A stretch of DNA of 43,510 nucleotides from an uncultured Clostridia bacterium (GTDB lineage: Bacteria; Bacillota; Peptococcia; Peptococcales; Peptococcaceae): contig CALXUG010000023.1 of NCBI GenBank assembly GCA_944391625.1, positions 1 to 43,510 on the forward strand, given 5' to 3'. The translations under genes were made by a program, and so were the position numbers. Below the pieces are notes generated by a model. That model did not search any database and was not told where the DNA came from. It was given only the letters and a program-made list of their open reading frames with translations. Positions within the stretch are counted from its first letter, which is position 1. Every line of letters starts with the position of its first letter. Of this stretch, positions 40,356 to 43,510 are shown in pieces.

Positions 40356-40409
40356 TAGACAAAGTCCCTCTGTATGTATAAAATTCTACATACAGAGGGA
40401 CTTTGTCTA
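40356..40409 (+). terminator. Long hairpin (23-bp stem) between TetR and radical SAM genes
   Basis: Positions 40356-40378 (TAGACAAAGTCCCTC onward) are exactly complementary to 40387-40409, with an 8-base loop. A T-rich tail (TTCATTTTTTC) follows. It most likely ends the tetR transcript. Its position 60 bp ahead of the radical SAM start would also allow attenuation. Confidence 0.7.
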
Positions 40410-40469
40410 TTCATTTTTTCTTCTTTCCCCTGTACGATAACAGTACTACATCGACAGGAGGAATTCAAA

Positions 40470-41819
40470 ATGCTTACAACACTGGATTTTAAAAAAATCG
40501 GAATCAAAACAGCTTACTCCTATATTGAAAAAAATCCAGAAAAAAACATGCTCAAGCTGATGGACTGGGTAGACCATTTTGCCGGCAGCGGTCCGGACAG
40601 TTTTGAGGAGCAGCGGGCTATCATTCGGCAGATAGCGGCCAATCCAGACTCCAACTGGCATCGGCTGGTTATGCGCATTCTCCGTGACACAGACTGCGAG
40701 GTTGTAAAAACCGTTTTCACCAACTTTTTCCTCAATGCCGTATTAACCGGCTGGAAAACCCAGGAAGAAAATCGTCGCAAATATCAGTGCAACATTCCCT
40801 GGACGATCCTGCTGGACCCCACTTCGGCCTGCAATCTGCACTGCACCGGCTGCTGGGCGGCAGAATACGGCAACAAGCTGAATCTGTCTTTTGACGAAAT
40901 GGATAATCTGATCACGCAGGGCAAAGAACTGGGGATTTATTTCTACATTTACACCGGCGGCGAACCACTGGTGCGCAAGCAAGATCTAATTGCGCTCTGT
41001 CAAAAACATCATGACTGCATTTTTCTCAGTTTCACCAACGGCACACTGATTGATGAAGCATTTGCCCAGGATATGCTGCGGGTAAAAAACTTTATTCCTG
41101 CCATTAGTGTGGAAGGTACGCAAGAAAGCCACGATGCCCGCCGCGGCGCCGGTTCTTATGCTAAAGTGCTGGCAGCCATGCAGCTGCTGAAAGCCCATCG
41201 TCTGCCGTTTGGCGTTTCCTGCTGCTACACCAGCCAAAATGTAGAAATCCTTGGCAGTGAAGCATTCTATGACCAGATGATTGAATTGGGCGCTTCCTTC
41301 GCCTGGTTCTTTCACTACATGCCGGTGGGAAACGATGCTGTGCCCCAGCTGATGCCAACTGTCCAACAGCGGGAATGGATGTATCACCAAGTGCGTCAGC
41401 TCCGTCAAACCAAACCGCTCTTCACCATGGATTTTCAAAACGACGGTGAATATGTAGGCGGCTGTATTGCCGGCGGCAGACGGTATTTACACATCAATGC
41501 CAACGGCGATGCAGACCCGTGCGTATTTGTGCATTACTCCAATGCCAACATCCGCACCCACAGCTTGTTGGACTGTCTGCGTTCTCCGCTGTTTCTGGCC
41601 TATCATCATGGACAGCCTTTTAGCAAAAATCACCTGCGGCCTTGCCCAATGCTGGAAAATCCAGAAAAACTGCGAGCTATGGTCACTGCTGCCGATGCCC
41701 ATTCAACCGACCTGCAAAGTCCGGAACGTGTGGAGCATCTCTGCGCCAAATGCGACCAATACGCCGCAGACTGGAAAATTGCCGCCGATAAGTTATGGTG
41801 CGAAAGTCATCGGAATTAA
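40470..41819 (+). CDS. Radical SAM enzyme with C-terminal SPASM-like cysteines
   Basis: The 449-residue protein binds a [4Fe-4S] cluster through CNLHCTGC (Cys121, Cys125, Cys128). Other radical SAM motifs are YTGGEPLVRK and FTNGTLI. The C-terminal part has GGCIAGGRRYLHINANGDAD, PCVFVHYSN, and CPMLENP then CAKCDQ, a set of cysteines like SPASM/twitch auxiliary-cluster sites. A 110-residue helical N-terminal extension precedes the radical SAM core. The enzyme class often modifies peptides or cofactors, but no precursor peptide is seen nearby. AGGAGG about eight bases before ATG 40470 sets the start. It may be regulated by the TetR protein encoded just upstream. Confidence 0.87.
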   Translation: MLTTLDFKKIGIKTAYSYIEKNPEKNMLKLMDWVDHFAGSGPDSFEEQRAIIRQIAANPDSNWHRLVMRILRDTDCEVVKTVFTNFFLNAVLTGWKTQEENRRKYQCNIPWTILLDPTSACNLHCTGCWAAEYGNKLNLSFDEMDNLITQGKELGIYFYIYTGGEPLVRKQDLIALCQKHHDCIFLSFTNGTLIDEAFAQDMLRVKNFIPAISVEGTQESHDARRGAGSYAKVLAAMQLLKAHRLPFGVSCCYTSQNVEILGSEAFYDQMIELGASFAWFFHYMPVGNDAVPQLMPTVQQREWMYHQVRQLRQTKPLFTMDFQNDGEYVGGCIAGGRRYLHINANGDADPCVFVHYSNANIRTHSLLDCLRSPLFLAYHHGQPFSKNHLRPCPMLENPEKLRAMVTAADAHSTDLQSPERVEHLCAKCDQYAADWKIAADKLWCESHRN

Positions 41820-41880
41820 TAGGAATCATTTTGGTTATTCTAGTATAGGAAACCATCAATCACATAGTATAACAAAAGCA

Positions 41881-42003
41881 AATAAGAGGGAGTAGCTTGC
41901 GCAAGCCAATTGCGTTGTTAACGTCCGTCAGCACAGTTCTCTGAGAACTCGGGCGTTTCCTGCAGAAAACAATTTCGTCTTCTAACAAAGCAAGACTTTT
42001 ATT
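41881..42003 (+). promoter_or_regulatory. yybP-ykoY (manganese-sensing) riboswitch
   Basis: The leader has the core of this riboswitch class. P1 forms from AATAAGAG (41881-41888) and CTTTTATT (41996-42003), with the hallmark GGGAGTAG (41888-41895) on the 5' side and GCAAGAC (41990-41996) on the 3' side. AACGTC (41920-41925) pairs with GGCGTT (41952-41957), the CGTCAGCAC / CGGG internal loop lies above it, and AGTTCT / AGAACT caps it. The P1 3' strand ends eight bases before AAAGGAG, so control at the ribosome site is plausible. The class binds Mn2+ and is often found before metal-exporting P-type ATPases, which matches the gene that follows. Confidence 0.85.
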
Positions 42004-42026
42004 GCCATCGAAAGGAGCGCATCACC

Positions 42027-43510
42027 ATGGACAAATTATGGACAAAAGAAAAAACAGAACTATTAACCTCCCTAAAAAGCAGTGAGCAAGGACTCACCCG
42101 CAGCCAAGCCTCCATCAAGCTGGAGGAGTACGGCGAAAACCGTTTAAAAGAAGGCAAACGCAAAGGCGTGCTGCAGGTATTTGCTGAACAATTTGCCGAC
42201 CTGTTGGTTATGATTTTGATTGTAGCTGCCATCATTTCTGCCGCCACCGGCGGAATCGAAGGAACCATTGTCATTATCGCTGTGCTGATTTTGAACGCCG
42301 TTTTAGGCACCGTGCAGCATTTTAAAGCGCAAAAATCGCTGGATAGCCTAAAAGCCATGTCAGCGCCCCACGCCAGAGTATTGCGGAATGGTGAAAAAAC
42401 AGAAATTCCCGCCGCAGAGCTGGTGCCCGGCGATATTCTCCTGCTGGAAGCCGGCGATGTAGCCGCGGCCGACGGCCGCATTTTAGAAAATCATTCTCTG
42501 CAGGTCAACGAAAGCGCGCTGACAGGAGAATCAGAACCGGTCAATAAAACCGATGAAGTTCTGCTAAAAGATGATCTGCCCTTGGGTGACCGTTTAAACA
42601 TGGTCTACAGCGGTTCGTTGGTTTCTTACGGCCGCGCCGTTGTTCTGGTTACCGCAACCGGTATGCAGACCGAAATCGGTAAAATCGCCCATCTGATGGA
42701 GTCGGCGCAGGAAAAAACAACACCGCTGCAGCGCAGTTTGGACGACTTTTCCAAAAAACTCTCCGTCATTGTGCTGGTTATCTGCGCTGTGGTGTTCTGC
42801 CTGGGCATCTGGCGTGACATGCCCCTGGCCGATGCGCTCATGTTTGCAGTAGCGCTGGCTGTAGCCGCCATTCCCGAAGCACTGAGTTCTATCGTAACCA
42901 TCGGTCTGGCCATCGGCACACAAAAAATGGCCGATGAAAACGCCATCATCAAAAAACTGCGGGCAGTAGAAAGTTTGGGCTGCGTATCGGTCATTTGCTC
43001 CGACAAAACAGGAACACTGACCCAAAACCGCATGACCGTGCAAAAAGCCTACACTCCCAACCAAGTGTGGGAAGCCGACCAAATCACCCAACCGGCGCAG
43101 CCGCTATCAGAATTGGTAACCAAAAGCGTACTGTGCAACGATGCCGTATTAACCAACGGCACCTACGTGGGCGAGCCTACCGAAATTGCCCTGGTGGCCT
43201 TCTGTCACAAAACCGGTGACGATGAAAAAGCATTGCGCAACCAGCATCCCCGTTTGCAGGAGCTGCCCTTCGATTCAGAACGGAAACGCATGTCCACCCT
43301 GCACCACATTGACGGCGCTTACCGCATGATAACCAAAGGCGCGCCCGATGTGCTGCTGCTGCGCTGCAACACCATTCAGCAAGATGGACAGACCATCCCC
43401 ATGACCGATGCCCACCGCACAGAAATTCAAGCACAGATTGAAACCTTTTCCGGTCAGGGATTGCGGGTGCTGGCCTTTGCCGAAAAAACCCTGCCTGCAT
43501 TGCGCAGCTT
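42027..43510 (+). CDS. Cation-transporting P-type ATPase (P2-type, Ca2+/Mn2+ exporter-like), truncated by the window end
   Basis: The first 494 residues are visible; the gene runs past 43510 with no stop. The N-terminal cation ATPase domain (EQGLTRSQASIKLEEYGENR) is followed by membrane helices, the TGES actuator motif (166-169), M4 motif AIPEALSS (281-288) and phosphorylation site CSDKTGTLT with Asp326. The nucleotide-binding KGAPDVLL segment is near the edge. The layout is that of PacL/YoaB-type P2 ATPases, which pump Ca2+ or Mn2+ out of the cell. The Mn2+ riboswitch in its leader favours manganese. AAAGGAG (42011-42017) precedes ATG 42027 by nine bases. Confidence 0.92.
   Translation, partial: MDKLWTKEKTELLTSLKSSEQGLTRSQASIKLEEYGENRLKEGKRKGVLQVFAEQFADLLVMILIVAAIISAATGGIEGTIVIIAVLILNAVLGTVQHFKAQKSLDSLKAMSAPHARVLRNGEKTEIPAAELVPGDILLLEAGDVAAADGRILENHSLQVNESALTGESEPVNKTDEVLLKDDLPLGDRLNMVYSGSLVSYGRAVVLVTATGMQTEIGKIAHLMESAQEKTTPLQRSLDDFSKKLSVIVLVICAVVFCLGIWRDMPLADALMFAVALAVAAIPEALSSIVTIGLAIGTQKMADENAIIKKLRAVESLGCVSVICSDKTGTLTQNRMTVQKAYTPNQVWEADQITQPAQPLSELVTKSVLCNDAVLTNGTYVGEPTEIALVAFCHKTGDDEKALRNQHPRLQELPFDSERKRMSTLHHIDGAYRMITKGAPDVLLLRCNTIQQDGQTIPMTDAHRTEIQAQIETFSGQGLRVLAFAEKTLPALRS

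Follow-up and report, generated by a model that had tools for sequence, protein, structure and literature searches.

The leader, the ATPase gene and their surroundings

The DNA analysed here, referred to as the window, is a stretch of 43,510 nt from contig CALXUG010000023.1 of an uncultured Clostridia bacterium (Peptococcaceae; assembly GCA_944391625.1). Towards its end lies an intact riboswitch aptamer, almost certainly of the Mn2+ (yybP-ykoY) family, at 41877-42008 on the forward strand, and the start codon of a P-type ATPase gene follows 18 nt on. The features of the leader are given below with their basis in brackets; R1 is a covariance model built from 11 orthologous leaders with the window excluded, and A1, A2 and A4 are alignments.

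41868-41873, forward: -10-like TATAAC, 20 nt 5' of GGGAG; no good -35 box seen
41877-42008, forward: aptamer, near-certain Mn2+ (yybP-ykoY) riboswitch, full R1 match (91.5 bits, E 7e-20, window outside the model)
41881-41888, forward: P1.1 5' strand AATAAGAG, closing P1, partner 41996-42003 (R1 match, constrained fold; helix covaries in A4)
41888-41895, forward: motif GGGAGTAG (sequence)
41889-41894, forward: internal loop L1, GGAGTA, inside GGGAGTAGC (invariant in the 18 rows of A1, rows chosen by that motif)
41895-41898, forward: P1.2 5' strand GCTT, partner 41988-41991 (R1 match, constrained fold)
41899-41915, forward: P2 hairpin GCGCAA/TTGCGT, 41899-41904/41910-41915 (R1 match, constrained fold)
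41920-41926, forward: P3 5' strand AACGTCC, partner 41951-41957 (R1 match, constrained fold)
41927-41934, forward: loop L3, GTCAGCAC (GTCA conserved in A2)
41935-41949, forward: distal P3 hairpin AGTTCT/AGAACT, 41935-41940/41944-41949 (constrained fold)
41950-41953, forward: CGGG (sequence)
41953-41961, forward: predicted anti-Shine-Dalgarno GCGTTTCCT, overlapping the P3 3' strand, partner 42013-42020 in free RNA (base-pair probabilities)
41964-41983, forward: weak P4 hairpin AGAA-a-AC/GT-c-TTCT (constrained folds)
41988-42003, forward: P1.2 and P1.1 3' strands AAGC-AAGA-CTTTTATT (this strand forms the terminator's 5' arm in relatives)
41990-41996, forward: GCAAGAC (sequence)
41996-42003, forward: P1.1 3' strand CTTTTATT, pairing with AATAAGAG
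42011-42017, forward: Shine-Dalgarno AAAGGAG (sequence)
42027, forward: ATG of the ATPase gene (sequence)
42027-43508, forward: P-type cation ATPase (Ca2+-ATPase type), N-terminal 494 aa, reading frame cut by the contig end (Pfam, structure matches)

The hallmark strands, the closing P1 and the P3-like stem with its CGGG loop, all read from this leader in the initial annotation, are in place. Helices P1, P2 and P3 surround a multi-way junction and are supported by covariation, with a weak P4 in the window. Every one of the 31 named pairs, spread over five helices, is standard as judged from the sequence and constrained folds; R1's own alignment of the window marks one model pair, in P3, as non-standard. 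The conserved features are likewise present, namely L1 (GGGAGUAG), L3 (GUCA) with its adenosine, and GCAAGAC. By equivalence with the loop described in the excerpt of PMC6754395, A41930 in L3 would be the adenosine expected to contact Mn2+. The stability of the full leader is ordinary (z -0.72).

A simple promoter scan of 41600-42200 found no promoter. Read by eye, TATACT or TATAAT stands at the same 20-nt spacing in three other R1-type leaders (L040, L041 and L133). The last of these belongs to a second R1-type Mn2+ riboswitch of the same genome (L133:1501-1604, reverse strand; G000:C2:2459-2562), which has a terminator hairpin of -30.7 kcal/mol and precedes a 317-aa multi-pass membrane ORF resembling a cation exchanger. 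Directly upstream of the window's riboswitch, on the same strand, a radical SAM/SPASM protein is encoded at 40374-41819; it reached the cut-off of none of the 25 NCBIfam models among the matches listed. Between a TetR-type gene and this radical SAM gene, a hairpin-like stretch (40356-40409) draws sub-threshold microRNA-model matches on both strands and is more likely a terminator or regulatory hairpin than a microRNA.

The downstream gene was annotated as a P2-type ATPase, and its Pfam domains (E1-E2_ATPase, 3.3e-60, along with Cation_ATPase and Cation_ATPase_N) bear this out, as do the best solved-structure matches, which are Ca2+-ATPases including lmo0841 of Listeria (6.7e-136). By domain architecture and similarity to a characterised Ca2+-ATPase the protein is of the P2A Ca2+-type. 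The truncated protein falls under the NCBIfam equivalog cut-offs and reaches the general P-type model TIGR01494. The C-terminal part lies beyond the contig end; on the 494 N-terminal residues present, the pump may move Mn2+, Ca2+ or both, and Mn2+ export is its putative role.

Family identity of the aptamer

R1 matches the window at 91.5 bits (E 7e-20), its sole match in the 43,510 bases at E<=10. Over 81 sources it marks 35 elements, namely the window's and those of 34 of the 80 ATPase relatives kept as the best of 269; 11 of the 34 are its own training sequences. The count of 34 is a lower bound, since several R1-negative relatives (L053, L058, L059, L060, L061, L076 and L085, all outside the set of 16 discussed below) show GGGAGTAG or GGGAGTAA upstream. 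A4 aligns the 35 members, the window among them, by fitting them to the model; pairing holds in 95.0% of its cells, and 28 of its 30 pairs show changes on both sides. Its covariation score of 0.377 (0.142 in shuffles) was reached by none of 500 shuffles. The 11 training rows taken by themselves have two-sided changes in 8 of 30 pairs. A1, a MAFFT alignment of 18 diverse leaders, appeared misaligned in P2 and P3 and was kept out of the model.

The check proposed in the initial annotation was a covariance search with Rfam RF00080, a score below the family threshold being named as the refuting result. On the window, the Rfam 15 model gave no match at its gathering score of 45 bits, and a permissive scan of 301 bases at the element listed nothing at E<=10, as was also the case when this same place was scanned as locus L120. 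Formally, then, the claim failed its own check. However, RF00080 at gathering likewise found nothing in any of 12 sources whose R1-type leaders are of Clostridia or Bacilli type (L040, L042, L043, L045, L046, L048, L052, L063, L065, L074, L105 and L109; seven of them R1 training sequences), so its failure was read as low sensitivity and the test judged unfair. The cut-off was reached in 2 of 14 named control genomes. In permissive mode, five of 17 R1-type sources were listed (L121, L126, L127, L129 and L130), at 17.2-40.9 bits with a cut-off of 45, the weakest at E 1.2. Since R1 and RF00080 mark identical elements in these five, the group can be tied to yybP-ykoY. RF00080 seems too strict or too narrow for these leaders, and it was discarded as the deciding test because it is too insensitive for the R1-type group. 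As the curated model missed the Clostridia-type Mn riboswitches tried here, surveys relying on RF00080 probably undercount them. Weak cmscan listings at the locus (adapt33_2, ctRNA_p42d and DnaX; E 1.6-9.8) lie far under their cut-offs and were put down to chance.

The silence of RF00080, both at gathering and at E<=10, is what would speak for a chance likeness or another RNA class. That reading is highly improbable, given an R1 match of E 7e-20 to a sequence outside the model, the same position before related ATPases, and the insensitivity of RF00080 to a group in which it nevertheless finds some R1 elements. The Mn2+ riboswitch proposed in the initial annotation is upheld on the score, the place and the covariation, and we are nearly certain that the element is a Mn2+ (yybP-ykoY) aptamer. 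From its sequence, the aptamer would be expected to bind Mn2+. Three of 12 sources scanned also carry an FMN riboswitch some 180-280 nt ahead of the Mn2+ riboswitch, on the other strand (L046:2449-2566, L048:2398-2539 and L052:2498-2613; reverse strand).

Absence of the terminator and possible origin of the short leader

In the relatives, a reverse complement of the P1 3' strand lies about 13-50 nt downstream, before a T run. We examined 81 elements, 52 from the R1 searches and 29 of 49 further matches from a search of the phylum, the 20 weaker ones being left out. With the limit set at -10 kcal/mol, 75 of the 81 have a downstream arm that pairs with the P1 3' strand and is followed by a T run; among shuffled tails, 22 of 810 do. 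Looser limits admit 77 of 81 (71/810 shuffled) at -8 kcal/mol and 80 of 81 at -5 kcal/mol; the -10 limit was adopted because that of -5 was also passed by 271 of 810 shuffled tails. An earlier shuffle control at -5 kcal/mol had suggested fewer (56/400, one arm only; 2/200 for the window's tail). Two narrower sets of rules were rejected: the first found no terminator in L034 or L074 and picked a hairpin that was wrong or weak in L069, L072, L098 and L109, and the second found none for L034 and left the arm unplaced in eight elements.

Folding of the five weakest elements gave long hairpins from the P1 strand, ending before T runs, in L073, L074, L103 and L176. In L174 a terminator-like hairpin lies mostly downstream of the P1 strand. 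A clear terminator on the P1 3' strand is thus found in 79 of the 81 elements, with L174 ambiguous. With near-copies counted once, 66 elements remain, 62 of them at -8 kcal/mol or better. All 12 orthologous leaders (L040-L043, L045-L048, L050, L052, L091 and L102) have the hairpin. The terminator is absent in the window, which alone among the 81 has no candidate at any limit. This re-check altered the counts and left our estimates for the competing readings as they were, because the window was still the sole element without a candidate. As an observation apart, the hairpin downstream of the R1 element L174:1501-1629 is not clearly on the P1 strand, and this leader is possibly another altered platform.

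A search of 398 genomes from the phylum with R1, under strict filters and at E<=0.001, gave 49 matches, the window's included, which is a lower bound. The arrangement of the window, with the aptamer end directly before AGGAG and an ATG, was sought as a pattern in the same 398 genomes and occurs at 15 places in 14 of them (9 for the reversed pattern); such an element is found only at the window's. As the pattern is narrow, other leaders of such a build may exist. The novelty is modest, since aptamer, ligand and target are of known kinds; it lies in the loss of a terminator that is clear in nearly all other elements.

Among the 80 best of 269 ATPase relatives, those with 69-74% identity carry the labels Anaerotignum, Lachnospiraceae, Clostridia, Bacillota or Peptococcaceae. 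A tree built from 37 sequences places the window beside three orthologs from Peptococcaceae (L044, L049 and L051) on a branch that is not strong (83/85). These four belong to a set of 16 with good support (97/98). Counting the window, 13 of the set carry the riboswitch, its absence in the tree meaning no R1 match. With filters off, the leaders of the three sisters gave five matches of 8.0-9.9 bits (E 2.4-7), none of which was taken as real. The simplest reading, on this not very strong branch, is that the riboswitch was ancestral to the set of 16, was lost in the three sisters and was kept in altered form in the window.

The ancestral leader would have been a transcriptional ON switch. Without Mn2+, the P1 3' strand would pair downstream to form the terminator, and with Mn2+, P1 would be held closed and transcription would pass. 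In the lineage of the window the 3' arm of the terminator and the U-tract would then have been lost, possibly as about 40-50 nt were deleted between two short direct repeats, leaving the aptamer directly before the ribosome-binding site. The distance from GAC to the matched ORF start is 33 nt in the window. It is 73-101 nt for 12 of 13 relatives and 209 nt for the remaining one; the true ORF start of L097 is somewhat earlier than the matched one. A direct repeat of at least 7 nt flanks the terminator in nine of the 13 relatives (TTTTATT in seven, TTGCACA in L040 and the 10-nt TTTTATTGCA in L052), and a deletion between its copies would take out 35-51 nt. The remaining four have repeats no longer than 4-6 nt. 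For the nine, between 0 (L052) and 95 (L097) of 500 shuffled tails contain a repeat as long. Deletion between direct repeats thus appears a good candidate for the event.

The same repeats could cause polymerase slippage, and the window is one sequence in a single assembly of 74 contigs. The genome might accordingly have a normal terminator, with some 40-50 nt between direct repeats dropped from the contig. We consider such an assembly or sequencing deletion unlikely. The window's tail is not simply that of a relative minus the hairpin, as CGC follows the Shine-Dalgarno, unlike in the 12 relatives listed. Moreover, assemblers usually work with words far longer than repeats of 7-10 nt.

A predicted translational switch and its precedents

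As the terminator of the relatives is missing here, the switch probably acts by hiding and freeing the ribosome-binding site. Without Mn2+, GCGUUUCCU (41953-41961) would pair with AGGAGCGC (42013-42020) and hide the Shine-Dalgarno. Because the occluding strand overlaps the P3 3' strand, the two folds are mutually exclusive; Mn2+, by stabilizing P3 and P1, would exclude the occluding pairing and free the Shine-Dalgarno, so that more pump would be made at high Mn2+. In the predicted folds, the Shine-Dalgarno is unpaired at 0.01 in free RNA and at 0.62 with the aptamer helices enforced. Among 11 relatives, free values span 0.26-0.71, and enforcing the aptamer shifts them by -0.19 to 0.53. For the window's aptamer segment by itself, the aptamer fold is 2.6 kcal/mol less favourable than the free ensemble; in 11 relatives the difference is 0.3-7.4 kcal/mol. 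Once the ribosome-binding site is included the cost rises to 8.2 kcal/mol, because of the pairing of 41953-41961 with 42013-42020. Such a cost is large and would have to be met by Mn2+ or by co-transcriptional folding.

In the shuffle controls the switch finds moderate support and does not stand far above chance. Of 300 spacer shuffles, 11 give equally deep burial of the Shine-Dalgarno and 48 pair it at 0.95 or more with the same occluding strand; shuffling of 41958-41987 brings it to 0.05 unpaired or less in 14 of 300 cases. When the two folds are compared in spacer shuffles, a change as large is seen in 17 of 200, and 31 of 200 combine a free value of at most 0.05 with an enforced value of at least 0.5. 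Of 12 relatives, one (L091) has an equally strong duplex (-11.3 kcal/mol, as compared to -10.9 in the window). After these controls there is less reason to regard the anti-Shine-Dalgarno pairing as clearly non-random.

The most serious rival to a translational switch is a switch in decay, in which the aptamer may bind Mn2+ and nothing has been switched since the terminator was deleted, the pump being made at a fixed level. The missing terminator, a poor -35 box, sister ATPases of the same genus that lack such an element, and a Shine-Dalgarno switch only moderately above shuffles would all fit such a relict. It is nonetheless the less probable reading, though one to be taken seriously. The 31 named pairs and the loops stay intact although many stem bases of the window differ from those of the relatives. 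Free RNA is, moreover, predicted to bury the Shine-Dalgarno, and such a leader would be off, not on, unless the aptamer folds. Another transcriptional route, such as Rho-dependent termination in the leader, would have a parallel in E. coli mntP, which is also of the yybP-ykoY family and which the excerpt of PMC11647493 describes as controlled at translation and by Rho; we think it improbable for the window.

Translational control, suggested in the initial annotation from the short gap before AAAGGAG, is now better founded, in that the terminator is absent and the Shine-Dalgarno is predicted to be buried in free RNA and released once the aptamer folds; the part of the case that rests on shuffle controls stays moderate. 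Translational ON control of the ATPase is our best account of the predicted folds and probably, by a little, the right one. Much the same guarded preference applies to the account as a whole, in which a Mn2+ aptamer lost its terminator, possibly by deletion between direct repeats, and would now be a translational ON switch. It is tempting to see a natural snapshot here, the terminator removed by direct-repeat deletion and a Shine-Dalgarno-occluding helix derived from P3 already acquired, on the way from transcriptional to translational control within one Bacillota gene family; we hold this at slightly less than even. If the translational reading is true, the window and its terminator-bearing relatives would offer a comparison of one aptamer re-plumbed from transcription to translation.

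The yoaB gene is a P-type ATPase gene. In Lactococcus lactis a yybP-ykoY riboswitch lies upstream of yoaB (PMC9190785), and the excerpts of two further papers describe its L1/L3 layout, Mn2+-contacting adenosine and four-way junction (PMC6754395) and the competition of P1.1 with an intrinsic terminator (PMC11087558). As far as these excerpts go, the window shares the L1/L3 layout, the presumed Mn2+-contacting adenosine and the four-way junction with this transcriptional ON switch; unlike it, the window has no terminator, and the Shine-Dalgarno follows directly. The terminator-bearing relatives resemble L. lactis in the competition between P1 and terminator (PMC11087558). In E. coli mntP, a translational ON switch, the excerpted account has the ribosome site inaccessible without Mn2+ and freed with it (PMC11647493), which is the logic proposed for the window and a precedent within the same riboswitch family. 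The two are compared at the level of logic, since mntP belongs to another gene family and another phylum and has a 229-nt leader. Streptococcus mgtA is like the window in having the same riboswitch family before an ATPase gene, in this case a Mn-sensing riboswitch before a Mn2+/Ca2+ ATPase gene whose pump is called P1B-type in the excerpt of PMC11434433. Closest to the window are the 12 orthologous leaders of Anaerotignum and other Clostridia listed above, with a very similar aptamer core and ATPases 69-74% identical; they differ from it in the terminator hairpin that every one of them has.
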